Shown here piece by piece: positions 4,242-59,725 of a stretch of DNA of 64,000 bases (its first letter is position 1; each line of letters opens with the position of its first letter). Position numbers and translations under genes: made by a program. Source of the DNA: Panopea generosa (Eukaryota; Mollusca; Bivalvia; Adapedonta; Hiatellidae); the NCBI GenBank assembly GCA_029582155.1, contig CM055901.1:42309616-42373615 (forward strand), read 5' to 3'. A model generated the notes under the pieces. That model saw only the letters and a list, made by a program, of their open reading frames with translations, was not told the origin of the DNA and did no database searches.

Positions 4242-6089
4242 ATATTGTAGCCGTTTTTAGACGTAAGCGAGAAATGTGTCCGCTTCGTCAATAACGACGT
4301 TTAGACGTGACAGGAAGTCAGTTGGTGGCAGTACAGTCATAGGACAGCAACCCACATATTCGTCATATGGACAACATGACGTTCCTGACGTCGGAATACG
4401 ATCGCGTTACAGGGCAACGTGAAGCCATATACTCAGTATAGAGTCAAAGAGGAGACAACCAAGTTATATAGCCACCGCCGCAAGGGACGAGTGATGCTAA
4501 ATCTATGATAGTCGGACGCGTAAAGTATATAGTGTCTTTTATAAACTTTTGAGTGATAGAAACAGTTTGGATCGCGATGTAGGTTACGTATGTGTAGGAG
4601 TTAGAACTTTGCGAAAATAAAAGTGTTAATACCATCAAAAGACTTTTTTTTTAAACGAGCTGTGTTTTTTTGTGTTGAGTAATTATCTTTAATTTGTATA
4701 TATTGTATACTTGTACATTCGTAATTTGTGAGTTGTCGGCCCTTGGCCATTTTGCTACAATATATATTTAATTTCATAAAGGGAGATAATTAAATTCACA
4801 ACAACGGAATTTACGATTTTTGGGATCTTTTCAGATGCTCATTCACAATGCATGATATATATATATGGAGATAATTATTTGTGAATAACCAAGACATAAA
4901 TGTACAGACCAGACTACGGCGAGTGCTCCTAGCTGCAATGTTAACCATAGCTACAATTTCAAGGTCTCTGCCAAACCAATAAATTTGGTGTCGACCATGA
5001 TTTATATACTATGGAATTACATGCAACACATCTGGACAGGGTGGACAAATTTACATACATGAACTGATAGCTTTGTATGAGTAGGATCCAGTTAAGGATT
5101 CATGACTACTCACATGCTATATAAATGATAGAGTACAGTAGTTCAATATTTTGGACACGTACGAATCGAAAAGGTTAAACATGATGGCTGGCGGTATGTC
5201 CATATTGCGAGTCACTGACATTAGTGAACTCATGGCTTTAACGGCTTTCCCTGCTAGAGCTGATGTTCCTTTGGTTTAAACATATTTTTTTCATATATAA
5301 TGTACAACGTATTCCACAACGTACATAGTTAAAGGATTGAAACGAAAGAAAATAATTCTTTTATAGATTCTTTCCTTAGTAACTTATCCAATCATTTGTG
5401 AAAATTTATTAATTTAGTTTTGACATATCAACAAAATACAGTTCTATAAAAGAAATTTAATTTTTACATCGATAGTTGTTTTTCTTTTAAAACAAAAAAC
5501 AACTTTTATAATTAATCATATAATTTAGAATTAAAAAATAGATAAACAGAAAGAAAATGCGGACGAGTTCGGGATTAAGGTGAGCGAGCCAAGGGAAACA
5601 GACAAGCAACATATAAGTGATTGTTATAGGTCATCATTTTCAAGTCTACAACTTCACAGCGTTGTTAGATCAGTTTTTAGTTTCGTTATTAAAACGCTTA
5701 CTCGAGAGTATAAATTTGTGTGAACCATTAAACATTTCGACGTTTGCATTGTGGGGGAGATGAGGTTCACCAAACAGAAATGTTTTGAGGGTAACAGTGC
5801 ATTTGTGAGAGATTGATGTGAGAAGTGTGTTGAGGGTAACAGTGCATATGTGAGAGATTGATGCGAGAAGTGTAGCCCGTTCGGTATGATAATAGGATTG
5901 ACGAGGAGGTATTGATTGGTCCTTTCAATTGCTCAACATGTACATAGTGGAGAATTTTCAATATTGTTTTTGAACAAGTGTTATTTCAGCGTACCACAAT
6001 TCGTACGAAGACGACTATGCAAGACCTGACATTTTCATGTACCTGTGTAAACGTGTTTTGATGTTTTGGTAAGATTTTTATTTAGCTGG
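4242..6089. other. Gene-poor spacer
   Basis: No supported gene. Contains AAGGGAGATAAT at about 4781-4792 and, at 5788-5873, two tandem copies of about 42 bp containing GGGTAACAGTGCAT. Confidence 0.5.
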
Positions 6090-6560
6090 TGCTTAAAGGC
6101 ATTGATAGAAACGGCTCGTCTTGTTTCTATAGGCAGATTGTTCCAATCGGACAACAGATGACATCAAAGAATTATAGAAGAGCACTGTTCTCGAACTTGG
6201 AATTTGTAGGTCATAACTATTTCTGAGGTTATACGGGGAATTTTCACCTATTTGGGATGGTACTAGTGCAGATAAGTAGGGAGGAGTCATATGGTTTACC
6301 ATTTTATAGAAAATAATTAATTTGTGCTTCGTCCTTCGAGTTTCTAGACTTTCCCACCCAACTTCTGTGTTTAAGTTATTAATTGATATACGTTTTGTTG
6401 TTCCATTTGCAATGCGTGCTGCTCCATGTTATCTAACTCGTGTTTTTCATAATTAGTTATCCCAGATTGTGTTACCATATTCTAACAGTGGTTGGCTTAA
6501 AGATGTATAGATAGTCTCCAGGGATCTTCTGTTTAGCTGATATTTCAGTTTTCCCGTAAT
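6090..6560 (-). pseudogene. CR1-like LINE, C-terminal part of ORF2
   Basis: Minus-strand remnant of the region after the reverse transcriptase of a non-LTR retrotransposon. Readable blocks are LNRRSLETIYTSLSQPLLEYG (thumb/connection), AARIANGTTK, WESLETRRTKHKLIIFYKM, VNHMTPPYLSALVP and SPYNLRNSYDLQIPSSRT, in the expected order. Several stops and frameshifts are present. It joins the piece at 7600-7925 once the intervening foreign segment is removed. Confidence 0.75.
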
Positions 6561-7592
6561 TTAATTCTTGACCATGATGCATGATGGCGGTTATGTAAAA
6601 TGTAAAATGATAATGTTAAAAGTGGTATTCTGACAAAAGTTTCAGTATTTCATGCCTGCAACTTGGTAGTATTACTGCAAATTGATAGTATTTAGTAAAA
6701 AAGAGATAATTAAGAAATTAGAAAAAAAAGTTTCCTTATAGGCATAGTACCTCCATTGGAGAATGGAAGTGCTTCCGAGGGTAGTCAGATAATGGCTGTT
6801 ATAAATAATCCTCATTTTTTTCTTCTTTAAAAATGCATTTTCCTTATTTTGATGCTCATTTGTTTATTTGAATGGCATTATTGATGTATTTTGAACATTT
6901 TGACAGCATTGTCATGTTTGAATTGTGAATTTAGAAAAAAAAATTGATACTTGGAAATTGAGGTATGAATACATGATTTCGGAAGTCTACTTTCACTTTG
7001 TCAACAGTGTACACACTGAGCAGAAAAAAATCTCTTATATGACACATGACCCCTACTTTTCTCAACATATTTTGGTAGTGTAGAGGTTGACAAACAGTAA
7101 AATGTAAGTTTCACTTCTTTCTTTGGGTCTCTCTATGAATGACAAGCCTTCAAACTTTCCACACGCCGTTTTCATCCCTTAAGTACACGAGTGTTATTGT
7201 TTGGTAAGAGTACATATACCAGTGACACAAATACATTTGTATTTACACAAGTACAACAATACATTAATGCCACGAAACGTTTTGTCAACAATTGACTCTC
7301 GGCATCATACCCAATTTTATGCAGCCCTTCAATGCACCGGAACAATATTATGACAGCACTTAAAACATATTATGTATTTTCTCTCTTTTTTCTCACCTAA
7401 TTTATTTATTTTTCTTTATTTATCTCTTCAATTTTATTGTTGGTTTACATCCTATTGATTGTTAAAATTGCCATCTTGATTCTAATGCTATTTGTATATT
7501 GAAAGGGGAGGGCCGTAATTAATGTTGCCAGAACTTGTGGCCCAACCCGTTTGCTATGTGAATTATGCAATAAAATATGTTTAAACTAAACT
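6561..7592 (+). mobile_element. Insert in the LINE remnant, ending in a LINE-type 3' tail
   Basis: About 1 kb that separates two pieces of the CR1-like remnant. Its last 90 bases match, in opposite orientation, the 3' end of the LINE at 19.6 kb: a GGGCC...GGCCC hairpin at 7505-7547, then AATAAAATATGTTTAAAC and TAAAC at 7570-7591. I interpret it as a 5'-truncated LINE on the + strand. The first 500 bases are not recognised, and no target duplication was found. Confidence 0.5.
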
Positions 7593-7599
7593 TCAAACT

Positions 7600-7925
7600 T
7601 TTATTATTTACTATAGTAATAACAAAAATCAATGGTGGGTTTACACCTATGATAAAAGTATAAGTGTTTGTGTGATTGTACTTCTGATATTTGTTGGTTA
7701 TGCATATATAGTGGTGGGTGGACGGGTTGATTGCGTTTCCTAGATATAAGAAGCGATTTAGTATTAACAGTTACAAGCCATTGTTTTGACCATTCGGTGA
7801 GTTTGTTGATGTCGGTATTCAAAATATGTGCAGCATTGTTTATATTGTTATTGTGATCGATTATAAAGTACAGGCTTGTATTGTTTGCAAAAAGGCAAAT
7901 GTTATATGCGAAAAAATAACGCTAA
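7600..7925 (-). pseudogene. CR1-like LINE, reverse transcriptase motifs A (trace) and C
   Basis: Continues the remnant. Directly after the tandem array comes VSVIFSHITFAF, a worn version of the motif A block (FCDISKAF). The sequence then jumps by internal deletion to LFANNTSLYFIID, where the catalytic FADD has become FANN. This is followed by ILNTDINKLTEWSKQWLVTVN and RNQPVHPPLYMHN. The enzyme is dead. Confidence 0.75.
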
Positions 7926-10205
7926 CTTCTTCACCGTCATCAATACCTTTACTTAATATATTGTACAGATACGTTACCTTAGTAATTGTTGAGCTTCTTC
8001 ACCGTCATCAATAGCTTTACTGAATATATTGTACAGATACATTACCTGGGTAATTGTTGAACTTCTTCACCGTCATCAGTAGCTTTACTGAATATATTGT
8101 ACAGATACGTTACCTGGGTAATTGTTGAACTTCTTCACCGTCATCAGTAGCTTTACTGAATATATTGTACAGATACGTTAACTGGGTAATTGTTGAACTT
8201 CTTTACCGTCATCAGTGGCTTTACTGAATATATTGTACAGATACGTTAACTGGGTAATTGCTGAACTTCTTCACCGTCATCAGTGGCTTTACTGAATATA
8301 TTGTACAGATACGTTAACTTGGTAACTGTTGAACTTCTTCACCGTCATCAGTAGCTTTATTGAATATATTGTACAGATACGTTAACTGGGTAATTGTTGA
8401 ACTTCTTCACCGTCATCAGTAGCTATACTGAATATATTGTACAGACACGTTAACTGGGTAATTGTTGAACTTCTTCACCGTCATCAGTAGCTTTACTGAA
8501 TATATTGTACGGACACGTTAACAGGGTAATTGTTGAACTTCTTCACCGTCATCAGTAGCTTTACTGAATATATTATACAGACACGTTAACTGGGTAATTG
8601 TTTAACTTCTTCACCGTCATCAGTAGCTTTACTGAATATATTGTACAGACACGTTAACTGGGTAATTGTTGAACTTCTTCACCGTCATCAGTAGCTTTAC
8701 TGAATATATTGTACAGATACGTTAACTGGGTAATTGTTGAACTTCTTCACCGTCATCAATAGCTTTACTGAATATATTGTACAGATACGTTAACTGTGTA
8801 ACTGTTGAACTTCTTGCCGTCATCAGTAGCTTTACTGAATATATTGTACAGATAAGTTAACTGGGTAACTGTTGAACTTCTTCACCGTCATCAGTAGCTT
8901 TACTGAATATATTGTACAGATACGTTAACTGGGTAATTGTTGAACTTCTTCACCGTCATCAGTAGCTTTACTGAATATATTGTACAGACACGTTAACTGG
9001 GTAATTGTTGAACATCTTCACCGTCATCAATAGCTTTACTGAATATATTGTACAGACACGTTAACTGGGTAATTGTTGAACTTCTTCACCGTCATCAGTA
9101 GCTTTACTGAATATATTGTATAGACACGTTAACTGGGTAATTGTTGAACTTCGTCATCAGTAGATTTACTGAATATATTGTACAGATACGATAACTGGGT
9201 AATTGTTGAACTTCTTCACCGTCATCAGTAGCTTTACTGAATATATTGTACAGATACGTTAACTGGGTAATTGTTGAACTTCTTCACCGCCATCAGTAGC
9301 TTTACTGAATATATTGTACAGATACGTTAACTGGGTAATTGTTGAACATCTTCACCGTTATCAGTAGCTTTACTGAATATATTGTACAGATACGTTAACT
9401 GGGTAATTGTTGAACTTCTTCACCGTCATCAGTAGCTTTACTGAATATATTGTACAGATACGTTAACTGGGTAATTGTTGAACATCTTCACCGTCATCAG
9501 TAGCTTTACTGAATATATTGTACAGATACGTTAACTGGATAATTGTTGAGCTTTACTGAATATATTGTACAGATACGTTAACTGGATAATTGTTGAACTT
9601 CTTCATCGTCATCAGTAGCTTTACTGAATATATTGTACAGATACGTTAACTGGGTAATTGTTGAACTTCTTCACCGCCATCAGTAGCTTTACTGAATATA
9701 TTGTACAGATACGTTAACTGGGTAATTGTTGAACTTCTTCACCGTTATCAGTAGCTTTACTGAATATATTGTACAGATACGTTAACTGGGTAATTGTTGA
9801 ACTTCTTCACCGTCATCAGTAGCTTTACTGAATATATTGTACAGATACGTTAACTGGGTAATTGTTGAACATTTTCACCGTCATCAGTAGCTTTACTGAA
9901 TATATTGTACAGATACGTTAACTGGATAATTGTTGAACTTCTTCACCGTCATCAGTAGCTTTACTGAATATATTGTACAGATACGTTACCTTGGTAATTG
10001 TTGAACTTCTTCACCGTCATCAGTAGCTTTACTGAATATATTGTACAGATACGTTAACTGGGTAATTGTTGAACTTCTTCACCGTCATCAGTAGCTTTAC
10101 TGAATATATTGTACAGATACGTTACCTGGGTAATTGTTGAACTTCTTCACCGTCATCAATAGTTTTACTGAATATATTGTACAGATACGTTACTTTGGTA
10201 ATTGT
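7926..10205. repeat. 68-bp minisatellite derived from LINE reverse transcriptase sequence
   Basis: About 33 tandem units of 68 bp, with + strand unit containing TTACTGAATATATTGTACAG. Most units differ by only a few bases, and a few are shortened (near 8810, 9150 and 9545). On the minus strand one frame of each unit reads TITQLTYLYNIFSKATDDGEEV, which is the LINE segment just before RT motif A. The 68-bp period is not a multiple of three, so the array has no continuous reading frame. The LINE continues on both sides. Confidence 0.95.
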
Positions 10206-10733
10206 TGAATCGTCAGGAAACAAAGCAGATTAAAATGACGAAATAAAATTGGTATCACGAAAGAATTTATGTATGTGTTTAACAATAAGTATTTTAAACA
10301 CTATGCCAATTACACTTAACAATAATATAGGTCTATAGTTATTAATCAAGGAAGAATCTCCCTTTTTATAAAGAGCGTATAAAAATGCTTTTTTTCTAGA
10401 CTTTTCGGAAAACACTTTTGGTCAGACAAACGTTAAATAAGTTGCATAAAGGCGTCGATAATAAATAGATATTTCACGCAAGACGTAATAGTTGATATCA
10501 TCGGGACCTGAGGCTTTGCCTGTTGGCAGTGTTTTTAAGATACTATTTACATCGTTAGGCTGTAGATTAATAATTGATACGATATCATTGTTATCACTTG
10601 GTAATAGCATTAGTGGTAAAATATTGTCATCATTAAGAATTGTCTGTTCCTGGAAGAAAACTTTTAAAATATTTGCTTTGGTATTGTTGTCAGAGACAAT
10701 GTTTCCATTATCGTAAAGTGGTGGGACAGTTGA
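10206..10733 (-). pseudogene. CR1-like LINE, start of reverse transcriptase
   Basis: Upstream half of the LINE remnant split by the 68-bp array. Readable blocks are STVPPLYDNGNIVSDN, KANILKVFFQEQTIL, LPTGKASGPDDINYYVLREIS, then after a frameshift KKAFLYALYKKGDSSLINNY, RPILLLSVIG and KFFRDTNFISSF, ending at the array in a worn FLPGDST-type block. The order and wording match the RT entry region of CR1-like LINEs. The 5' edge at about 10733 is fused in frame to a different LINE. Confidence 0.8.
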
Positions 10734-12046
10734 TTTATCTAGTACTTTCTTTTTAAAAACAATATGAAAGTTTAACAAATTTGCATCATCAGTACCTGAC
10801 CATATATACGAAAATCTATAATCATCCAGTAAATTTTTGTTGTTTTTCACCCAATTTTTACCACCTTTATTACAATCAATAAGTAATGAATTATATAAAT
10901 ATTCAACTATAATGTTATCAGATTTAACAATTTTATTCCAGTATTTAATCATACGAACATATCTATTTATATACAATGGGTATCTACCTAACTCTCCATA
11001 TACACCCATATTACTTGTCGAGGTTTTAACATTTAATAAATATTTACAAAATTTCAGATGAATTCTTTCGATTTCTTTTGATTTGGAAAATTCCCATATT
11101 TCGCAGGCATAATTAAGAGTTGAGCCAACAAAGGCATCAAATAATTGACAGACAGTTTTAGGTTTCAATGTATATTTACGAGTATTTGCCAGTAAAATGT
11201 TTAATGCTTTAAGACCCTTTCCAGCCAAAGCTTCCTGATTAGGAGAATAGTTACCGGTATAATTGAAATCGTGCCCAGATATTTAAAATCATTTACTACT
11301 TCTGAAGGTTGATTATTAAAAGTCCAATTTTCATCGCTTTTTAAAGGACCCCTTTTTCGAAATACAACAATCTTGGTTTTTAGCAGTATTCACCTCTAAC
11401 CCCCAAGTTTCACAATATTTATGTTTAAGATTAATACTTTTTTGCAGATCAGTCGCGTTTTTACCTAATATCACCATATCATCAGCAAAAAGCATTAAGA
11501 TAAATGTAATGTCATCCAAGTTCATGCCACAGTTAAGATCGTTGCACAAGTATAGCTCTAGATCTTCCAAAAATAATGAAAACAACAGAGGAGAAATTAC
11601 TTCCCCTTGCTTTAAACCGATAGCACATTCAAAAAACTCGGAATAGGAGTTACATCCCTTAACACATGCTTTCACATTTGAGTACATGTCACGAATAATT
11701 CGTAACATTTTAGCATTAACACCCAATCGATTAAGTTTAAACCATAAACCATTTCGATAAATACTATCAAAAGCTTTCTTTAGGTCTACAAATGCACAAT
11801 CTAATCGGTCATTTTTAATAATACTTTTTGTATAATGGAATTAAGTACAAATATTACATCAACATCATTATTATTTTCAATACAAGTATTAATTCGCTTA
11901 TTTAAAATACCCGTAAATATCTTAGATAAACAACTGACTAAGCTTATACCTCTGTAATTATTATAGTTGAACGCAGATGACATGGTATAAAAACTGTTAT
12001 GACTTGCCTGTGTTTGTCCCTGACGGTTGTTACACTCACCAGTCAA
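10734..12046 (-). pseudogene. Second LINE remnant, reverse transcriptase
   Basis: A different non-LTR element, also minus strand. Blocks in order: NYRGISLVSCLSKIFTGILN (RT entry, about 11980-11930), FVDLKKAFDSIYRNGLWFKL (motif A, about 11790-11735), IGLKQGEVISPLLFSLFL (motif B), ILMLFADDMVILGKNATDLQ (motif C, about 11490), WGLEVNTAKN, and the downstream region LLANTRKYTLKPKTVCQLFD and NYACEIWEF. FADD is intact, but frameshifts fall near 11800 and 11330 and the endonuclease is missing, so the copy is 5'-truncated and inactive. Its C-terminal end runs in frame into the neighbouring CR1-like fragment at about 10733. Confidence 0.85.
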
Positions 12047-12410: not shown

Positions 12411-14675
12411 CGATATTTGGACTACGTAATAGTTATTTTGTTATTTTACGGAACTATATTGTGATAAACGTAAGGCCATAATAAATAAATTGCTAGATAA
12501 TCATCCCCGCCCGCCCCCTAATTTTCATGCCGCCCAGACCCTTTGTATTTTCATAAAAAAAACATCAAAAGTAAAAAATAAAATCCTTCCGCCCTCCCCG
12601 TTTTTTAGAAAAAATTGGATGATATTCTAGCAATTAATTTATAATGGCCTAATAGTTATTTTGTTATTTTACGGAACTATATTCTGAACTACGTAATCGT
12701 TATTTTGTTATTTTACGGAACTATATTCTGAACAAATTAATGGTTATTTTGTTACTTTACGGAACTGTATTCTGAACTACGTAATCGTTATTTTACAGAA
12801 CTATATTCTGAACTACGTTATGGTTATTTTATTGTTTTACCGAACTATATTCTGAACTACGTTATGGTTAATTTGTTATTATACTGAACTATATTTTGAA
12901 CTACAATATGGTTATTTTGTTATTTTAAAGAACTATGTTCTGAACTACGTAACCGGTGTTTTACGGAACTATATTGTGAACTACGCAATGGCTATTTTAT
13001 GGAACTATATTCTACGTAAATTAATGGTTATTTTGTTATTTTACGGAACTGTATTCTGAACTACGTAATCGTTATTTTACAGAACTATATTCTGAACTAC
13101 GTAATGGTTATTTTGTTATTTTACAGTACTATATTTTGAACTACGTAATGGCTATTTTGTTATTTTACGGAACTGTATTCAGAACTACGTAATGGTTATT
13201 TTGTTATTTTACGGAACTGTATTCTGAACTACGTCATGGTTATTTTGTTATTTTACGGAACTGTATTCTGAACTACGTAATGGTTATTTTGTAACTTTAC
13301 GGAACTATGTTCTGAACTACGTAATCGTTATTTTACGGAACTATATTGTGAACTACGAAATGGTTATTTTGTTATTTTACCGAACTATAGTGTAAACTAC
13401 GTAATGGTTATTTTGTTTTTATACGGAACTTTATTGTGGTCTACGTAATGGTTACATTGTTATTTTACAGAACTATATTCTGAACTACGTAATGGTTATT
13501 TTGTTATTTTATGGATCTATATTATAAACTACGTAATGGTTATTTTGTTATTTTGCGGAACTATATTGTTAACTACGTAATGGTTATTTTGTTATTTTAC
13601 GAAACTATCTTTTGAACTACGTAATGGTTATTTTGTTATTTTACGGAACTATATTGTGAACTACGTAATGGTATTTTGTTATTTTACGGAACTATGATTG
13701 AACTACGTAATCGTTATTTTACAGAACTATATTGTTAACTACGTAATGGTTATTTTGTTATTTAACCGAACTATAGTGTAAACTACATTATGGTTATTTT
13801 GTTATTTTACGGAACTATATTCTGAACTACGTAATGGTTATTTTGTTATTTTATGGAACTATATTGTAAACTACGTAATGGTTGTTTTGTTATTTTACGG
13901 AACTATATTGTAAACTACGTAATGATTATTTTGTTATTTTAAAGAACTATCTTTTGAACAATGTAATCGTTATTTTGCTATTTTACGGAATTATATTGTG
14001 AACTACGTAATGGTTATTTTGTTATTTTACGGAACTATATTGTAAAATACGTAATGGTTATTTTGTTATTTTACGGAACTATATTGTGAACTACGTAATG
14101 GTTATTTTGTTATTTTACGGAACTATATTGTGAACTACGTAATGGTATTTTGTTATTTTACGGAACTATATTGTGAACTACGTAATGGTTATTTTGTTAT
14201 TTTACGGAACTATATTGTAAACTACCTACGTGATGGTTGTTTTGTTATTTTACGGAACTATATTGTAAACTACGTAATGATTATTTTGTTATTTTAAAGA
14301 ACTATCTTTTGAACTACGTAATGGTTATTTTGTTATTTTACCGAATTATATTGTGAACTACGTAATGGTTATTTTGTTATTTTACGGAACTATATTGTAA
14401 AATACGTAATGGTTATTTTGTTATTTACGGAACTATATTGTGAACTACGTAATGGTATTTTGTTATTTTACGGTACTTTATTGTGAACTACGTAATGGTT
14501 ATTTTGTTATTTTACGGAACTATATTGTAAAATACGTTATGGTTATTTTATTATTTTACGGAACTATATTGTAAACTACGTAATGGTTACATTGTTATTT
14601 TACGGAACTATATTGTGAACTACGTAATGGTTATTTTGTTATTTTAAGGGACTGTATTGTAAATTATGTAATGTT
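12411..14675. repeat. 44-bp satellite array
   Basis: About 47 tandem units of 44 bp built around GAACTACGTAATGGTTATTT and TTACGGAACTATATT. Units are moderately diverged, and some have internal deletions (near 12790, 12960 and 13690). The array is interrupted at 12474-12649 by a MITE. No coding potential. Confidence 0.95.
12474..12649. mobile_element. MITE with 33-bp TIRs and TAA target duplication (PIF/Harbinger-like)
   Basis: A 176-bp insert in the 44-bp satellite. The left end GGCCATAATAAATAAATTGC (12474-12493) and the following 13 bases match the reverse complement of the right end at about 29 of 33 positions. TAA flanks both sides (12471-12473 and 12650-12652). Deleting the insert plus one TAA restores a normal satellite unit. 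Harbinger elements duplicate a 3-bp TWA target and often start with GG, hence the assignment. The interior is C-rich, then A-rich, and non-coding. Confidence 0.85.
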
Positions 14676-15319
14676 TTTTTTTTATATTTTAAGCATGACA
14701 GTTATTATTTAAACGAAATTCTGAAATATGTTGTGGTTATTTAACTTGGTTATACAAGTGAAATGAAAGTGGAAGACGTTCTGGTACACAACTAAAATGT
14801 GTTTTGAAATATAAAATGTCTATTTAACTGAGTTTTATTTTGAAACACACTGGAATGTTTATGTGTTTTCATCATAACTATTATGTCGTTCATATAAATA
14901 TGTTTATGTTTATGTGTTGTCATCATAATGTATTATGTGAAAGTAATTGTCATCAATCTTCAGTGTATTTTGTAATGTACATATGTTAATAAACAAAAAC
15001 ATATATTTAACATGGACTGTGAGTTTGTAACGTTATCACGTGTGATGTGATCCATTGTTTTCTTCAAAAATGCAAGCATGCATTCTAAGCATACATAATT
15101 AATGCTTATTTATCATGTTAACATGTTAATTTAGATTATTGCAAAGTTAGCATATTATATCATTATAGAATGTTGTTTTTAATTATTTTTATTATATCCA
15201 CATTAATAAAATATGATGTATGCACATGCAGTTATTTGAAATTGTTTCCATTATTTATTGATGATATTAACGTCACATTTTTCACCGTATCGTTATAATG
15301 ATCATGATTATGATCAGGA
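14676..15319. other. Spacer without recognised features
   Basis: AT-rich flank of the satellite with no supported gene or repeat. Confidence 0.4.
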
Positions 15320-24480: not shown

Positions 24481-27400
24481 ATAGAACATATGGTTTATAT
24501 GTTATATGGACCCATTTAGCATTCAAGGTATGACTATCTGACCCCTGTAGCATTCTAGGTATGACTGTCAAGTAAGGGGTTTATATGTTATATGGACCCG
24601 TGTAGCATTCTAGGTCTGACTGTCTGACCTATGTAGCATTCTAGGTCTGAATGTCTGACCAGTGTAGCATTCTAGGTCTGTCTGTCAGGTTAGGGGTTTA
24701 TATGTTATATAAACCCATGTAACATTCAAGGACTGACTGTCAAGTTAGGGGTTTATATGTTATATGGACCGTGTAGCATTTTAGGTCTGACTGTTTGATC
24801 CATGTAGCATTCTAGGTATGACTGTCTAGGTATGACTGGGGTGGGGGGGGGGGGGTTATGTTATATGGACCCATGTAGCATTCTAGGTCTGACTATCAAG
24901 TAAGGGGTTTATATGTTATATGGACCATGTAGCATTCTAGGTCTGACTGTCAAGTAAGGGGTTTATATGTTTTATGGATCTTGTAGCATTCTAGGTCTGA
25001 CTGTCAAGTAAGGGGTTTATATGTTATATAGAACCATGTAGCATTCTAGGTCTGACTGTCTGACCCATGTAGCATTCTAGGTCTGACTGTCAAGTAAGGG
25101 GTTTTATATGTAATATGGACCCGTGTAGCATTCTAGGTCTGACTGTCTGACCCATGTAGCATTCTAGGTCTATAAGTAAGGGGTTTATATGTTATATGGA
25201 ACCATGTAGCATTCTAGGTCTGACTGTCTGACCCATGTAGCATTCTAGGTCTGACTGTCAAGTAAGGGGTTTTATATGTAATATGGACCCATGCAACATT
25301 CTAGATCTGACTGTCAAGTAAGGGGTTTATATGTTATATGGACTATGTAGCATTCTAGGTCTGACTGTCAAGTAAGGGATTTATATGTTTTATGGATCAT
25401 GTAGCATTCTAGGTCTGACTGTCAAGTAAGGGGTTTTATATGTTATATGGACCCATGCAACATTCTAGATCTGATTGTCAAGTAAGGGGTTTATATGTTA
25501 TATGGACCATGTAGCATTCTAGGTCTGACTGTCAAGTAAAGGATTTATATGTTTTATGGATCATGTAGCATTCTAGGTCTGACTGTCAAGTAAAGGGATT
25601 ATATGTTATATGGACCCATGTAGCATTCTAGGTCTGACTGTCAAGTAAAGGGTTTATATGTTATATGGACCCGTGTAGCATTCTAGGTCTGATTGTCAAG
25701 TAAGGGGTTTATATGTTATATGGACCCATGTAGCATTCTAGGTCTGACTGTCAAGTGAGGGGTTTATATGTTATATGGACCATGTAGCATTCTAGGTCTG
25801 ACTGTCAAGTAAGGGGTTTATATGTTATATGGACCCATGTAGCATTCTAGGTCTGACTGTCAAGTAAAGGGTTTATATGTTATATGGACCCATGTAGCAT
25901 TCTAGGTCTGACTGTCAAGTAAAGGATTTATATGTTATATGGACCCATGTAGCATTCTAGGTCTGACTGTCAAATAAGGGGTTTATATGTTATATGGACC
26001 CATGTGGCATTCTAGGTCTGTTTTTCAAGTAAGGGGTTTATATGTTATATGGACCCATGTAGCATTCTAGGTCTGACTGTCAAGTAAGGGGTTTATATGT
26101 TATATGGACCCATGTAGCATTCTAAGTCTGATTGTCAAGTAAAGGGTTTATATGTTATATGGGCCCATGTGGCATTCCAGGTCTGTTTTTCAAGTAAGGG
26201 ATTTATATGTTATATGGACCCATGTAGCATTCTAGGTCTGACTGTCAAGTAAAGGGTTTATATGTTATATGGACCCACGTAACATTCTAGGTCTGATTGT
26301 CAAGTAAGGGGTTTATATGTTATATGGACCCATGTAGCATTCTAGGTCTGATTGTCAAGTAAGGGGTTTATATGTTATATGGACCCATGTGGCATTCTAG
26401 GTCTGACTGTCAAGTAAGGGGTTTATAAGTTATATGGACCCATGTAGCATTCTAGGTCTGACTGTCAAGTAAGGGGTTTATATGTTATATGGACCCATGT
26501 ACCATTCTAGGTCTGATTTTCAAGTTAGGGGGTTTATATGTTATATGGACCCTTGTAACATTCTTTGTCTGATTGTCAAGAAATGGGTTTATATGTTATA
26601 TGGACCCATGTAGCATTCTAGGTCTGACTGTCAAGTAAGGGGTTTATATGTTATATGGACCCATGTAGTATTCTAGGTCTGACTGTCAAGTAAGGGGTTT
26701 ATATGTTATATGGACCCATGTAGCATTCTAGGTCTGACTATCAAGTAAGGGGTTTATATGTTATATGGACACATGTGGCATTCCAGGTCTGACTGTCAAA
26801 TAAGGGTTTTATATGTTATATGGACCCATGTAGCATTCTAGGTCTGACTGTCAAGTAAGGGGTTTATATGTTATATGGACCCATGTAGTATTCTAGGTCT
26901 GACTGTCAAGAAAAGGGTTTATATGTTATATGGACCCATGTAGCATTCTAGGTCTGACTGTCAAGTAAGGGGTTTATATATTATATGGACCCATGTAGCA
27001 TTCTAGGTCTGATTGTCAAGATAGGGGGTTTATATGTTATATGGACCCATGTAACATTCTAGGTCTGACTGTCAAGTAAGGGGTTTTTATGTTATATGGA
27101 CCAATGTAGTATTCTAGGTCTGACTGTCAAGTAAGGGGTTTATATGTTATATGGACCCATGTTGCATTCTAGGTCTGACTGTCAAGTAAGGGGTTTATAT
27201 GTTATAACGACCCATGTGGCATTCCAGGTCTGACTGTCAAGTAAAGGATTTTTATGTTTTATGGATCATGTAGCATTCTAGGTCTGACTGTCAAGTAAAG
27301 GGATTATATGTTATATGGACCCATGTAGCATTCTAGGTCTGACTGTCAAGTAAAGGGTTTATATGTTATATGGACCCGTGTAGCATTTTAGGTCTGTTTG

Positions 27401-29440
27401 TCAAGTAAGGGGTTTATATGTTATATGGACCCATGTAGCATTCTAGGTCTGACTGTCAAGTGAGGGGTTTATATGTTATATGGAACATGTAGCATTCTAG
27501 GTCTGACTGTCAAGTAAGGGGTTTATATGTTATATGGACCCATGTAGCATTCTAGGTCTGACTGTCAAGTAAGGGGTTTATATGTTTTATGGACCCATGT
27601 AGCATTCTAGGTCTGACTGTCAAGTAAAGGATTTATATGTTATATGGACCCATGTAGCATTCTAGGTCTGACTGTCAAATAAGGGGTTTATATGTTATAT
27701 GGACCCATGTGGCATTCTAGGTCTGTTTTTCAAGTAAGCGGTTTATATGTTATATGGACCAATGTAGCATTCTAGGTCTGACTGTCAAGTAAAGGATTTA
27801 TATGTTATATGGACCTATGTAGCATTCTAGGTCTGATTGTCAAGTAAGGGGTTTATATGTTATATGTACCCATGTAGCATTCTAGGTCTGATTGTCAAGT
27901 AAAGGGTTTATATGTTATATGGGCCCATGTGGCATTCTAGGTCTGTTTTTCAAGTAACGGATTTATATGTTATATGGACCCATGTAGCATTCTAGTTCTG
28001 ACTGTCAAGTAAAGGGTTTATATGTTATATGGACCCATGTAACATTCTAGGTCTGATTGTCAAGTAAGGGGTTTATATGTTATATGGACCCATGTAGCAT
28101 TCTAGGTCTGATTGTCAAGTAAGGGGTTTATATGTTATATGGACCCATGTGGCATTCTAGGTCTGACTGTCAAGTAAGGGGTTTATAAGTTATATGGACC
28201 CATGTAGCATTCTAGGTCTGACTGTCAAGTAAGGGGTTTATATGTTATATGGACCCATTTACCATTCTAGGTCTGATTGTCAAGTTAGGGGGTTTATATG
28301 TTATATGGACCCTTGTAGCATTCTATGTCTGATTGTCAAGTAAGGGGTTTATATGTTATATGGACCCATGTAGCATTCTAGGTCTGACTGTCAAGTAAGG
28401 GGTTTATATGTTATATGGACCCATGTAGTATTCTAGGTCTGACTGTCAAGTAAGGGGTTTATATGTTATATGGACCCATGTAGCATTCTAGGTCTGACTG
28501 TCAAGTAAGGGGTTTATATATTATATGGACCCATGTAGCATTCTAGGTCTGATTGTCAAGTTAGGGGGTTTATATGTTATATGGACCCATGTAGCATTCT
28601 AGGTCTGACTGTCAAGTAAGGGGTTAATATGTTATATGGACCCATGTAATATTCTAGGTCTGACTGTCAAGAAAAGGGTTTATATGTTATATGGACCCAT
28701 GTAGCATTCTAGGTCTGACTGTCAAGTAAGGGGTTTATATATTATATGGACCCATGTAGCATTCTAGGTCTGATTGTCAAGATAGGGGGTTTATATGTTA
28801 TATGGACCCATGTAGCATTCTAGGTCTGACTGTCAAGTAAGGGGTTTATATGTTATATGGACCCATGTAGTATTCTAAGTCTGACTGTCAAGTAAGGGGT
28901 TTATATGTTATATGGACCCATGTTGCATTCTAGGTCTAACTGTCAAGTAAGGGGTTTATATGTTATATGGACCCATGTGGCATTCCAGGTCTGACTGTCA
29001 AGTAAAGGATTTATATGTTTTATGGATCATGTAGCATTCTAGGCCTGACTGTCAAGTAAAGGGATTATATGTTATATGGACCCATGTAGCATTCTAGGTC
29101 TGACTGTCAAGTAAAGGGTTTATATGTTATATGGACCCGTGTAGCATTCTAGGTCTGATTGTCAAGTAAGGGGTTTATATGTTATATGGACCCATGTAGC
29201 ATTCTAGGTCTGACTGTCAAGTGAGGGGTTTATATGTTATATGGAACATGTAGCATTCTAGGTCTGACTGTCAAGTAAGGGGTTTATATGTTATATGGAC
29301 CCATGTAGCATTCTAGGTCTGACTGTCAAGTAAGGGGTTTATATGTTATATGGATCCATGTAGCATTCTAGGTCTGTTTTTCAAGTAAGGGGTTTATATG
29401 TTATATGGACCCATGTGGCATTCTAGTTCTGACTGTCAAA
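24481..29440. repeat. 55-bp satellite array with higher-order repeats
   Basis: About 90 tandem units of 55 bp containing GGGGTTTATATGTTATATGG and CATTCTAGGTCTGACTGTCA. The first 600 bp are more irregular and include a long G run (about 24839-24855). Variant units recur at fixed distances of 1705 and 1761 bp (31 and 32 units), showing block duplication. No coding potential. Confidence 0.97.
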
Positions 29441-29624
29441 TAAGATTGCGTTTGAAACGAAACACCATGTATTATTCGTTATATCATACTGAATGCAACT
29501 TATATGACGTCAAGACTCTTTTCATATGAATTCCGTATTTAAGTTTTATAAGTCTACTATCACGTATTTCCTTTTAAACAATATCTGAATACCAATAACT
29601 TAGCAGCGTATTTTGATAAAAGAA
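29441..29624. other. Short unique segment between two satellites
   Basis: No repeat or gene recognised. Confidence 0.4.
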
Positions 29625-30240
29625 TAGAACCGTTCAGAAAGCTATAGATTATATAGTTTTTAATTCCGAATCCGAATTATGATAACAAATTCAACCATTC
29701 AGATATGTGCAGATTATATCGTTTTTAATTCCAAATCCGAATTATGATAACAAATTAAACATTCAGATAGGTAAAGTTTATATAGTTTTTAATTCCAAAT
29801 CCGAATTATGATAACAAATTCAACCATTCAGATAGGTATAGATTATATAGCTTTTAATTCCGAATCCGAATTATAATAACAAATTCAACTATTCAGATAG
29901 GTATAGAATATATAGTTTTTAATTCCGAATCCGAATTATGAGAACAAATTTAACCATTGAAATAGGTATAGATTCTATAGTTTTAAATTCCGAATCCGAA
30001 TTATGATTTCAACCATTCAGATAGATATAGATTATATAGTTTTTAATTCCGAATCCGAATTATGATAATAAATTTTACCATTCAGATATGTGCAGATTAT
30101 ATAGTTTTTAATTCCGAATCCGAATTATGATAATAAATTCAACCATTCAGATAGGTAAAGATTATATAGTTTTTAATTCCGAATCCGAATTATGATAACA
30201 AATTTAACCGCTCAGATAGGTAAAGATTATATAGTTTTTA
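29625..30240. repeat. 65-bp satellite, left segment
   Basis: About nine units of 65 bp with TTCCGAATCCGAATTATGAT and TTCAACCATTCAGATAGG. It is the left part of one array that resumes, in the same orientation, at 41147 after the foldback element. Confidence 0.95.
30235..30240. repeat. Left target-site duplication of the foldback element
   Basis: TTTTTA, repeated at 41147-41152. Joining the flanks with one copy restores a 65-bp satellite unit of a variant seen elsewhere in the array. Confidence 0.8.
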
Positions 30241-30837
30241 TATGGAACGCCATAGCTGTCTTATGTGATCCATTTTATATGTATTGTGTGCATTCTTTAT
30301 TATATCATGTGCATTTATCATTATATTATGTAGATACTTTATTACATTATGTCGATACTTCATTACATTTTGTAGATACTTTATTATATTATGTAGACTG
30401 TTTATTACATTATGTAGATACGTCATTATATTGTGTAGTTACTTCATTACATTATGTTGATACATTATTACATTATGTGGATACTTTATTATATTCTGTA
30501 AATACTTCAATACATTATGTAGATATGTCATTATATTGTGTAGATACTTTATTACATTATGTAGACTGTTTATTACATTATGTGGATACTTTATTATATT
30601 CTGTAGATTCCTTATGACATTATGTAGATACTTTATTATATTATGTAGATACTTAATTACATTATGTAGATACTTTATTATATCTTGTCGAAACTTTATT
30701 ATATTATGTAGAAACTTTATTACATTATGTCGAAACTTTATTATATCTTGTCGAAAGTTTATTATATTATGTGCATTTTTCATTATATTATGTCGAAACT
30801 TCCTTATGATGACGAGATCATTTTGACTGGGTGATTT
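30241..30837 (+). repeat. Left terminal inverted repeat (21-bp subrepeats)
   Basis: The outer 60 bp are unique (TATGGAACGCC...); then about 22 subrepeats of 21 bp such as ACTTTATTACATTATGTAGA; then an inner unique block GATGACGAGATCATTTTGAC. It matches the right TIR at roughly 90 percent, with a different subrepeat number. Because 21 is a multiple of three, both strands show long artefactual reading frames. Confidence 0.9.
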
Positions 30838-40612: not shown

Positions 40613-41146
40613 AAATCACCCCGTCAAAATGATCTCGTCATCATAAGGAAGTTTTGACATAATATAATGAAGAATGCACATAATATAATAAACTTTCGAC
40701 ATAATGTAATAAAGTTTCGACATAATGTAATAACGTTTCTACATAATATAATAAAGTTTCGACAAGATATAATAAAGTGTCTACATAATGTAATGAAGTA
40801 TCTACATAATATAATAAAGTTTCTACATAATGTAATAAAGTATCTACATAATGTAATGAAGTATCTACAGAATATAATAAAGTATCCACATAATATAATT
40901 AACAGTCTACATAATGTAATAACGTATCTACACAATATAATGACGTATCTACATAATGTAATGAAGTATCTACACAATATAATGACGTATCTACATAATG
41001 TAACAAACAGTCTACATAATATAATAAAGTATCTACATAATGTAATAAAGTATCGACATAATATAATGATGAATGCACATGATATAATAAAGTGTGCACA
41101 TAATACATAGAAAATGGACCATATAAGACAGCTATGGCGTTCCATA
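40613..41146 (-). repeat. Right terminal inverted repeat (21-bp subrepeats)
   Basis: Inverted counterpart of 30241-30837, about 60 bp shorter through loss or gain of 21-bp subrepeats. The outer end is GGCGTTCCATA and the inner end GTCAAAATGATCTCGTCATC. Confidence 0.9.
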
Positions 41147-44100
41147 TTTTTAAATTCCAAATCCGAATTATGATAACAAATTCAACCATTCAGATAGGTA
41201 AAGATTATGTAGTTTTAGGTATAGATGATATGGCTTTTAATTCCGAATCCGACTTATGATAATAAATTCAGCCATTCAGATAGGTAAACATTATATAGTT
41301 TTTAATTCCGAATCCGAATTATGATAACAAATTTAACCGTTCAGATAGGTAAAGATTATATAGTTTTTAAATTCCAAATCCGAATTATGATAACAAATTC
41401 AACCATTCAGATAGGTAAAGATATGTAGTTTTAGGTATAGATAATATAGTTTTTAATTCCGAATCCGAATTATGATAGCAAATTCAACCATTCAGTAACT
41501 TATAGATTGTATAGTTTTTGATTCCGAATCCGAATTATGATAACAAATTCAACCATTCAGATAGGTAAAGATTATATAGTTTTTAAATTCCAAATCCGAA
41601 TTATGATAACAAATTCAACCATTCAGATAGGTAAAGATTATGTAGTTTTAGGTATAGATAATATAGTTTTTAATTCCGAATTATGATAGCAAATTCAACC
41701 ATTCAGAAACTTATAGATTGTATAGTTTTTGATTCCGAATCCGAATTATGATAACAAATTCAACCATTCAGATAGGTAAAGATTATAACGTTTTTAATTC
41801 CGAATCCGGATTATAAGAACAAATTCAACCATTCATATAGGTATAGATGATATGGCTTTTAATTCCGAATCCGACTTATGATAATAAATTCAGCCATTCA
41901 GATAGGTAAACATTATATAGTTTTTAATTCCGAATCCGAATTATGATAACAAATTTAACCGTTCAGATAGGTAAAGATTATGTAGTTTTAGGTATAGATA
42001 ATATAGTTTTTAATTCCGAATCCGAATTATGATAGCAAATTCAACCATTCAGAAACTTATAGATTGTATAGTTTTTGATTCCGAATCCGAATTATGATAA
42101 CAAATTCAACCATTCAGATAGGTAAAGATTATATAGTTTTTAAATTCCAAATCCGAATTATTATAACAAATTCAACCATTCAGATAGGTAAAGATTATGT
42201 AGTTTTAGGTATAGATAATATAGTTTTTAATTCCGAATCCGAATTATGATAGCAAATTCAACCATTCAGAAACTTATAGATTGTATAATTTTTGATTCCG
42301 AATCCGAATTATGATAACAAATTCAACCATTCAGATAGGTATACATTATATAGTTTTTAATTCCGAATCCGAATTATGATAACACATTCAACCATTCAGA
42401 TAGGTATAGATTAAGTTGTTTTTAATTCTGAATCCGAATTATGATAACAAATTCAACCATTGAGATAGGTATATATTATATTGTTTTTAATTCCGAATCT
42501 GAATTATGATTTCAACCATTCAGATAGGTATAGATTATATAGTTTTTAATTCCGAATCCGAATTATGATAATCAATTCAACCATTCAGATAGGTATAGAT
42601 TATATAGCTTTTAATTCCGTATCCTAATTATGATAATAAATTCAACCATTCAGATATGGTTATATTATAAAGTTTTAAATTCCGAATCCGAATTATGATA
42701 ATAAATTCAACCATTCAGATAGGGTAAAGATTATATAGTTTTTAAATTCCAAATCCCAATTATGATAACAAAAATTCAACCATTTAGATAGGTAAAGATT
42801 ATATAGTTTTAGGTATAGATAATATAGTTTTGAATTCCGAATTATGATAGAAAATTCAACCATTCAGAAAGCTATAGATTATATAGTTTTTAATTCCGAA
42901 TCTGAATTATGATAATAAATTCAACCATTCAGATAGGTAAAGATAATATAGTTTTTAATTCCGAGTCCGAATTATGATTTCAACCATTCAGATAGGTATA
43001 CATTATATAGCTTTTAATTCGGAATCCGAATTATGATAACAAATTCAAATATTCAGATATAGAATATGTAGCTTTTAATTCCGTATCCGAATTATGATAA
43101 CAAATTCAACCATTCAGATAGGTAAATATTATAACGTTTTTAATTCCGAATCCGGATTATAAGAACAAATTCAACCATTCATATAGGTATAGATGATATG
43201 GCTTTTAATTCCGAATCCGACTTATGATAATAAATTCAGCCATTCAGATATGTAAACATTATATAGTTTTTAATTCCGAATCCGAATTATGATAACAAAT
43301 TTAACCGTTCAGATAGGTAAAGATTATATAGTTTTTAAATTCCAAATCCGAATTATGATAACAAATTCAACCATTCAGATAGGTAAAGATTATGTAGTTT
43401 TAGGTATAGATAATATAGTTTTTAATTCCGAATCCGAATTATGATAGCAAATTCAACCATTCAGAAACTTATAGATTGTATAGTTTTGATTCCGAATCCG
43501 AATTATGATAACAAATTCAACCATTCAGATAGGTAAAGATTATATAGTTTTTAAATTCCAAATCCGAATTATGATAACAAATTCAACCATTCAGATAGGT
43601 AAAGATTATGTAGTTTTAGGTATAGATAATATAGTTTTTAATTCCGAATCCGAATTATGATAGCAAATTCAACCATTCAGAAACTTATAGATTGTATAGT
43701 TTTTGATACCGAATCCAAATTATGATAACAAATTCAACCATTCAGATAGGTGTTTTTAATTCCGAATTAGAATTATGATAACACATTCAACCATTCAGAT
43801 AGGTATAGATTATGTTGTTTTTAATTCTGAATCCGAATTATGATAACAAATTCAACCATTGAGATAGGTATATATTATATTGTTTTTAATTCCAAATCCG
43901 AATTATGATTTCAACCATTCAGATAGGTAAAGATTATATAGTTTTAAATTCCGAATCCGAATTATGATAATCAATTCAACCATTTAGATAGGTATAGATT
44001 ATATAGCTTTTAATTCCGTAACCGAATTATGATAACAAATTCAACCATTCAGATAGGTATATATTATAAAGTTTTAAATTCCGAATCCGAATTATTAGAA

Positions 44101-45290
44101 TAAATTCAACCATTCAGATATGTATAGATTATATGGCTTTTAATTCCGAATCCGAATTAAGATAATAAATTCAACCATTCAGATAGGGTTAAGATTATAT
44201 AGTTTTTGAATTCCAAATCCCAATTATGATAACAAAAATTCAACCATTTAGATAGGTAAAGATTATATAGTTTTAGGTATAGATAATATAGTTTTTAATT
44301 CCGAATTATGATAGAAAATTCAACCATTCAGAAAGCTATAGATTATATAGTTTTTGATTCCGAATCCGAATTATGATAACAAATTCAATCATTCAGATAG
44401 GTATACATTATATAGTTTTTAATTCCGAATCTGAATTATGATAATAAATTCAACCATTCAGATAGGTAAAGATAAAATAGTTTTTAATTCCGAGTCCAAA
44501 TTATGATTTCAACCATTCTGATAGGTATACATTATATAGCTTTTAATTCGGAATCCGAATTATGATAACAAATTCAAATATTCAGATATAGAATATGTAG
44601 CTTTTAATTCCGTATCCGAATTATGATAACAAATTCAACCATTCAGATAGGTAAATATTATAACGTTTTTAATTCCGAATCCGAATTATAAGAACAAATT
44701 CAACCATTCATATAGGTATAGATGATATGGCTTTTAATTCCGAATCCGAATTATGATAATAAATTCAGCCATTCAGATAGGTAAACATAATTTAGTTTTT
44801 AATTCCGAATCCGAATTATGATAACAAATTCAACCATTCAGATAAGTATAGATTATATAGTTTTAAATTCCGAATCCGAATTATGAAAACAAATTCAACC
44901 ATTCAGATAGGTAAAGATTATATATTTTCTAATTCCGAATCCGAATTATGGTAACAAATTCAACCATTCAGATAGGTAAAATTTATATAGTTTTTAATTC
45001 CGAATCCGAATTATGATAACAAATTCAACCATTCAGATAGGTATAGATTATATAGTTTTAAATTGCGAATCCGAATTATGATAACACATTCAACCATTCA
45101 GATAGGTATATATTATATAGTTTTTAATTCCGAATCCGAATTGTGATAACACATTCAACCATTCAGATAGGTAAAGATTATATAGCTTTTAATTCCGAAT
45201 CCGAATTATGATAATAAATTCAACCATTCAGATAGGTAAAGATTATATAGCTTTTAATTCTGAATCCGAATTATGATAATGAATTTGACC
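41147..45290. repeat. 65-bp satellite, right segment, with higher-order structure
   Basis: About 64 units of 65 bp. Composite units carrying GTAGTTTTAGGTATAGATAA recur (for example about 41640, 41990, 42200, 43400 and 43615). A rare variant block with GGATTATAAGAAC and GATGATATGGCTTT recurs at about 41786, 43131 and 44660 (spacing 1346 and about 1529 bp), so blocks of 20 or more units have been duplicated. It starts with TTTTTA, the right target duplication of the foldback element. Confidence 0.96.
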
Positions 45291-57109: not shown

Positions 57110-59725
57110 TTATAAAGTTTCATAATCAGTTTGTGTGCGCCGTTAATCTACTACATCCAACCGCGCCTAAATATAGAAGTCATGCGGGAATTGTAATTGT
57201 AGAATCATTAGTTTCATGATCAGTTTGTGTTTGCTGTTACACTCCTACATCCAACCGCGATTACATATAGAAGTCATTCGGGGATTGTAATTGTAGAATA
57301 ATTAGTTTCATAGTCAGTTTGTGTGCGTTGTTACACACCTACATCTAACTGCGCCTGCGTAAAGAAGTCATTTGGGGATTGTAGTTGTAGAATCATTGGT
57401 TTCATAATCAGTTTGTGTGCGTTGTTACACTACTACATCCAACCGCGTCTACAAATAGAAGTTATGCGGGGATTTTAATCACAGAATCATTAGTTTCATA
57501 GTCAGTTTGTGTGCGCTGTTACAATGCTACATCTAACCGCGCCAACATATAGAAGTCATTCGGGGATTGTAATTGTAGAATCATTAGTTTCATAATCAGT
57601 TTGTGTACGTTATAACACTCCTACATCTCACTGCGCCTTCATATAGAAGTCATTCGGGGATTGTTATTGTAGAATCATTAGTTTCATAGTCAGTTTGTGT
57701 GCGCTGTTACACTCCTACATCTAACTGCGCCTTCATATAGTAGTCATTCGGGGATTGTAATTGTAGAATCATTAGTTTCATAGTCAGTTTGTGTGCACTG
57801 TTACGCTCCTACATCTCACTGCGCCTTCATATAGAAGTCATTCGGGGATTGTTATTGTAGAATCATTAGTTTCATAGTCAGTTTGTGTGCGCTGTTACAC
57901 TCTTACATCTAACTGCGCCTTCATATAGTAGTCATTCGGGGATTGTAATTGTAGAATCATTAGTTTCATAGTCAGTTTGTGTGCGCTGTTACACTCTTAC
58001 AGCTAACCGCACCTACATATAGAAGTCATGCGCGGATTGTAATTGTAGAATCATTAGTTTCATAGTCAGTTTGTGTGCGTTGTTACACTCCTACATCTAA
58101 CCGCGCCAACATATAGAAGTCATGCGGGGATTGTAATTGTAGAATCATTAGTTTCATAATCAGTTTGTGTACGTTGTAACACTCCTACATCTCACTGCGC
58201 CTTCATATAGTAGTCATTCGGGGATTGTTATTGTAGAATCATTAGTTGCATAGTCATTTTGTGTGCGCTGTTACACTCTTACATCTAACTACACCTTCAT
58301 ATAGAAGTCATTCGGGGATTGTAATTGTAGAATCATTAGTTTCATAGTAAGTTTGTGTGCGTTGTTACACTCCTACATCTAACTGCGCCTTCATATAGAA
58401 GTCATTCGGGGATTGTTATTGTAGAATTATTAGTTTCATAGTCAGTTTGTGTGCGTTGTTACACTCCTACATCTAACTGCGCCTTCATATAGAAGTCATG
58501 CGCGGATTGTAATTGTAGAATCATTAGTTTCATAGTCAGTTTGTGTGCGTTGTTACACTCCGACAGCTAACTGCACCTACATATAGAAGTCATGCGGGGG
58601 TTGTAATTGTAGAATCATTAGTTGCATAGTCAGTTTGTGTGCGCTGTTACACTCCTACATCCAACTGCGCCTACATATAGAAGTCATTCGGGGATTGTAA
58701 TTGTAGAATCATTAGTTGCATAGTCAGTTTGTGTGCGCTGTTACACTCCTACATCCAACTGCGCCTTCATATAGTAGTCATTCGGGGATTGTAATTGTAG
58801 AATCATTAGTTTCATAGTCAGTTTGTGTGCGTTGTTACACTCCTACATCTAACTGCGCCTTCATATAGTAGTCATTCGGAGATTGTTATTGTAGAATCAT
58901 TAGTTTCATAGTCAGTTTGTGTGCGTTGTTACACTCCGACAGCTAACTGCACCTACATATAGAAGTCATGCGGGGATTGTAATTGTAGAATCATTAGTTT
59001 CATAGTCAGTTTGTGTGCGTTGTTACACTCTTACATCTAACTGCGCCTTCATATAGAAGTCAAGCGGGGATTGTAATTGTAGAATCATTAGTTTCATTAT
59101 CAGTTTGTGTGCGTTGTTACATTCCGACAGCTAACCGCACCTACATATAGAAGTCATGCGGGGATTGTAATTGTAGAATCATTAGTTTCATAGTCAGTTT
59201 GTGTGCGCTGTTACGCTCCTACATCCAACCGCGCCTACATATAGAAGTCATTCGGGGATTGTAATTGTAGAATCATTAGTTTCATAGTCAGTTTGTGTGC
59301 GCTGTTACGCTCCTACATCCAACCGCACCTACATATAGAAGTCATTCGGGAATTGTAATTATAAAATCATTAGTTTCATAGTCAGTTTGTGTGCGCTGTT
59401 ACGCTCCTACATCCAACCGCGCCTACATATAGAAGTCATTCGGGGATAGTAATTGTAGAATCATTAGTTTCAAAGTCAGTTTGTGTGCGCTGTTACGCTC
59501 CTACATCCAACCGCGCCTACATATAGAAGTCATTCGGGATTTGTAATTATAGAATCATTAGTTGCATAGTCAGTTTGTGTGCGCTGTTACAAGCCTACAT
59601 CCAACCGCACCTACATATAGAAGTCATGCAGGGATTGTAATTGCAAAAACATTAGTTTCATAATCAGTACGGTGCGCTGTTCCACTCCTACATCCAACCC
59701 CACCTCTTTACAGTAGCTATGCGGG
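57110..59725. repeat. 94-bp satellite array
   Basis: About 28 units of 94 bp with CATAGTCAGTTTGTGTGCGC, CTACATCTAACTGCGCCTTC and CGGGGATTGTAATTGTAGAA. It begins shortly after dispersed element B, just as the 49-bp array follows element A. Two main variant types (AACCGCGCCTACAT and AACTGCGCCTTCAT) occur in blocks. Confidence 0.96.

Follow-up and report, generated by a model that had tools for sequence, protein, structure and literature searches.

Minisatellites derived from transposable elements (TEs), including those made from slices of LINE ORF2, are already published and common. For the human genome, the available part of one survey gives at least 7,276 TE-derived arrays, amounting to 23% of minisatellites and satellites (PMC3389668). 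Several satellites are likewise built from pieces of LINEs, and the accessible text of a second source lists HinfI/SCR1 of the chicken, derived from CR1, PROsat of Phodopus and Pvc20 of Phoca, both derived from L1 ORF2, and the common cetacean satellite, which derives from the L1 3' UTR (PMC9659126). In oysters, satellites associated with Helitrons have been reported as dominant, according to the portion of that report that was available (PMC11136912).

Here we describe a minisatellite found in a stretch of 64,000 nucleotides (hereafter the window) of the bivalve Panopea generosa, situated on contig C8 of a genome of 1.47 Gb in 39 contigs. Taking all the evidence together, we consider it highly probable that this array grew in place from a single 68-bp segment of the reverse transcriptase (RT) region of a dead, 5'-truncated LINE copy. 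Neither the array nor its LINE was found described in the literature, in searches that were not designed for a single locus.

Splitting of the minus strand resolved the array into 34 head-to-tail units at positions 10206..7923, each of them a copy of positions 534-601 of the LINE consensus. Thirty-one of the 34 units are exactly 68 bp long, the remainder being units 10, 16 and 21 (47, 62 and 67 bp, respectively). Tandem Repeats Finder (TRF) reports a period of 68 over window positions 7924-10209 in two main rows with 94% and 96% matches, and head-to-tail units of this size fall within the range usual for minisatellites (about 10-100 bp). A preliminary description of this DNA had recognized the amplification and put it at about 33 copies, one fewer than obtained by splitting. 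The range that it assigned, 7600-10733, includes the last part of a foreign insert (6577-7649) at its lower side, and its upper end falls 6 bp before the LINE junction at 10739. It was right that a period of 68 breaks the reading frame: the three minus-strand frames of 7901-10739 contain 59, 69 and 75 stops. As the plus-strand frames of the same interval contain 66, 72 and 65, all six are full of stops, and a coding role for the array as a repeat protein was ruled out; the array probably has no function at all.

The array lies inside a broken LINE copy that spans 10739..5270 on the minus strand. On its 5' side stands the RT entry (10207..10739, minus strand), in which 477 of 532 aligned bases equal the LINE consensus and which carries an in-frame stop together with indels upstream of the array. 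This copy is 5'-truncated at 10739, nothing in the window matching the first 1884 bases of the stretch taken from the relative L027; the truncation point is abutted by a fragment of a second, different LINE on the same strand (10740..11950, ends approximate), identified by eye from its translation as a broken RT reading FADDMVILGKN. After the last unit, alignments and printed boundaries place only a few further LINE bases before a deletion junction (7912..7922, minus strand): the sequence continues to consensus position ~613 and jumps to 854, so that ~240 bp (consensus ~614-853) directly 3' of the array are lost, with a microhomology of ~1 bp at the junction. The LINE then resumes from the motif C region onward (7650..7911, minus strand; 248 of 262 aligned bases as in the consensus, with 13 gap positions) and is interrupted by an insert of 1.07 kb (6577..7649), of which similarity searches matched parts 7649-7591 and 7158-6737 to a repeat adjacent to the LINE copy L015, and part 7158-7000 also to a repeat in L013. 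The remainder of the same copy runs to its 3' end at 5270..6576 (minus strand) and is 83-91% identical to L015. The flanks of the array are thus LINE sequence in the right order, consensus 1-533 before it and 854-1128 after it, apart from the deleted ~240 bp.

The deleted piece bears on how the exit from the array is read. In the consensus it holds FDISKAFD and GVPQGSILGP, which by common usage we take to be motifs A and B, so that VSVIFSHITFAF, which had been interpreted as a worn motif A, cannot be that motif. The reading at the exit, SHITFAFLQTIQA (SHITFAF), comes from the motif C stretch translated out of frame, the consensus giving SHLTFVFLQTIQA when translated likewise; in the correct frame the window has FANNT against FADDT, both aspartates having been replaced by asparagines. 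The window copy accordingly lacks an uninterrupted RT frame that would include motifs A, B and C, and it is dead many times over, through its stop, its indels, its frameshifts, the 5' truncation, the deletion and the insert. With lesions this numerous, the proposal in the preliminary description that amplification followed or caused inactivation is only one possible order of events.

The source of the unit was sought in other copies of the LINE. A consensus of 1128 bp was built from 11 copies, and the unit matches one segment of it, positions 534-601; single units match L015 with E values as low as 2e-23, which rules out chance. Other copies were retrieved with the 3' flank as query, for which 42 matches were listed (40 of 192 candidates scored); they comprise the window itself, two second pieces in copies already counted and 39 other places, all of which were fetched. 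The copies sampled are young, their aligned parts having 96-100% identity to the consensus (one short piece in L028 is 80% identical), older subfamilies being left out. Seven of the 39 begin inside or downstream of the segment (L011, L016, L020, L028, L030, L035 and L040). In BLAST comparisons the segment is present exactly once in each of the 32 copies that cover it, between RT entry and motif A, and two or more units were found in none of these 32. The unit of the array is therefore single in the other copies of the same TE that cover it, and amplification at this locus, as had been proposed, is borne out. The relatives also hold a unit-like segment precisely where the preliminary description had expected one, and where its absence from intact relatives would have spoken against it.

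One relative, L027, places the segment within coding sequence. Its open frame, 1215 aa in length, includes both an APE-type endonuclease and an RT domain above the cut-offs (Exo_endo_phos, E 7.6e-9; RVT_1, E 5.4e-32), and the segment occurs there a single time, in frame, reading STINQLTYLYNMFSKAIDDGKEV immediately ahead of RVIFFDISKAFD. The unit is thus confirmed as a piece of LINE RT coding sequence, and the name CR1-like that had been attached to the element is, we presume, plausible. The idea that the family is a short form devoid of an endonuclease was considered and rejected, because L027 has the endonuclease and 11 of the 12 other printed copies share sequence upstream of the L015 start (L025 not beyond a few bases); the apparent common start base is merely the 5' truncation of L015, the query copy. 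In L027 (3371-7018, minus strand) and L019 (2250-4964, plus strand) the LINE frame includes SGDVHPNPGP upstream of the endonuclease, which resembles a 2A-like (StopGo) peptide; such peptides are known from some LINEs. In L025 a deletion of 164 bp, located at 5112-5113, begins where the unit segment has its 3' end (consensus 600 to 765). Recurrent 219-bp duplications in the LINE were also considered and ruled out: the two copies concerned, L011 and L020 of contig C1, share ~8.4 kb in two aligned blocks that are 97-98% identical and reach well outside the LINE, and as a segmental duplicate they represent one event.

The limits of the segment in the consensus are exact, GATTC/AACAAT at one end and GAAGTTC/GCG at the other, and have the 3-bp sequence TTC in common, of which the repeat junction keeps one copy. 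Since TTC stands at both ends, the new junction GAAGTTC/AACAAT is the product expected of slippage or microhomology-mediated joining. The repeated TTC is consistent with a microhomology-mediated duplication, with the reservation that three bases are weak evidence alone: by our estimate a 3-bp common end would occur by chance in about 1 in 64 boundary pairs, and oftener in DNA as A+T-rich as this.

Variation among the units offers some insight into the later history of the array. The mean pairwise difference is 5.7% for all 34 units, a figure inflated, like the distances of unit 21, by misalignment of that 67-bp unit, and 4.9% for the 31 full-length units, seven of which are identical to the modal unit. 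With columns counted from 0 and units 10, 16 and 21 dropped for length, a G at column 13 occurs only in units 1, 2, 4, 32, 33 and 34 (6 of 31) and is associated with nearness to the edge (Mann-Whitney p 0.00014, a value flattered by the choice of this column after the units had been viewed). No confinement to the edges is seen for a T at column 47 (p 0.17), and units farther from an edge are not significantly less divergent from the modal unit (Spearman -0.24, p 0.20). The similarity between adjacent units exceeds that obtained after shuffling (reached by 0 of 5000 shuffles for the 34 units; p 0.033 for units 3-32), and a run of variants common to units 5-8 and 11-14, noted by eye, fits what a block duplication would leave. 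The edge-confined variant, the duplicated block and the many near-identical inner units are together consistent with a subsequent expansion through unequal exchange or conversion. All 34 units depart from the LINE consensus at columns 8 and 33, and 33 of the 34 at column 18; these changes predate the array, have swept through it, or are subfamily states. The flanks differ from the consensus unevenly, by 55 of 532 bases (10.3%) on the 5' side and 14 of 262 (5.3%) on the 3' side, and since they form no even clock we offer no date.

The state of columns 10 and 13 is not one predicted by simple growth, in that the inner units have the LINE-consensus bases and the units at both edges another pair. 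Ectopic gene conversion is an unlikely cause; in this reading the many young LINE copies would have converted some of the units, and this type would afterwards have spread through the interior. If it were true, a minisatellite that arose from a dead LINE would be undergoing revision by the young transposon family to which its parent is related. The pattern is equally well explained by back-mutations due to chance, or by conversion of the edge units among themselves.

Three other accounts of the array as a whole were weighed against growth in place. An array formed during retrotransposition, through repeated slipping of the RT on its RNA template, and inserted ready-made with the copy seems to us decidedly unlikely. 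It would agree with an array wholly within a LINE copy, and tandem duplication is seen once independently in other copies, the 219 bp standing twice in L011 and L020. Against it, not even two units in a row occur among the 32 covering copies, the edge-confined variant and the repeated variant block suggest changes after insertion, and the divergence among units (4.9-5.7%) is below that of the 5' flank from the consensus, although the 3' flank shows no such contrast. We regard it as very improbable that a dispersed satellite family arose from this LINE elsewhere and that the array is one of its loci, moved here, given that the array sits exactly at the position of the single unit in the LINE, with LINE on both sides. 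The matches listed for the 3'-flank query include 39 other places at 90% over its full 201 bases, which also speaks against this account, as well as two further pieces of 79-80 bases at 92-93%; no sister copy of the locus is among the matches listed (40 of 192 candidates scored). A collapsed or over-expanded repeat in the assembly, an error to which tandem arrays are generally prone, can be virtually dismissed in view of the private unit variants, the edge-confined variant, the repeated block and the regular period, although the copy number may be inexact.

Under the favoured account, growth in place from a single segment, the events may have run in the following order. A decaying, 5'-truncated copy of a LINE with an APE-type endonuclease and an RT, lying on the minus strand, would first have undergone a tandem duplication of its 68-bp RT segment with TTC at both ends, for which replication slippage or microhomology-mediated repair is the most likely route. 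The resulting pair could then have expanded to 34 units through unequal sister-chromatid exchange, slippage or gene conversion, a growth that presumably included block duplication and homogenisation of the inner units. The loss of ~240 bp just 3' of the array would have been a separate event.

The surroundings are rich in similar structures. Seventeen merged tandem arrays with a score of at least 150 occupy 33% of the window, and in a stretch so rich in tandem repeats a LINE-derived array needs no special cause. Other long minisatellites lie at window positions 12650-14691 (44 bp), 24492-29444 (55 bp) and 57116-59698 (94 bp), and a combination of 65-bp and 21-bp arrays occurs twice, ~10 kb apart (29628-30801 and 40657-45279), with the 21-bp units in opposite and the 65-bp units in the same orientation, as judged by eye from the TRF consensus units. 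Elsewhere in the genome, a LINE copy is followed immediately at its 3' end by a 93-bp array of ~42 copies (L009:6134-10000).

Compared with the described systems, as far as the available parts of the sources permit, the array resembles the human TE-derived minisatellites in having started within a TE copy as a tandem repeat and grown through local duplication, and differs from that set in that the slice is LINE RT coding sequence and 32 single-unit copies can be set beside it (PMC3389668). With HinfI/SCR1, PROsat, Pvc20 and the common cetacean satellite, as presented in the accessible text, it shares a unit that is a slice of a LINE, ORF2 being included in three of those four; unlike them, it is one short array still in its parent copy, presumably at an early stage (PMC9659126). 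The oyster satellites, in the portion of the report that was available, are likewise TE-associated tandem repeats of mollusc genomes, but they are the central repeats of Helitrons, whereas the present array arose in one dead LINE copy (PMC11136912). No principle is changed by this locus, which is a useful worked example of transposon fragments feeding tandem repeats. The birth of a minisatellite can be seen clearly here, with the parent sequence, exact boundaries, a possible TTC seed and 32 unexpanded controls in one genome.
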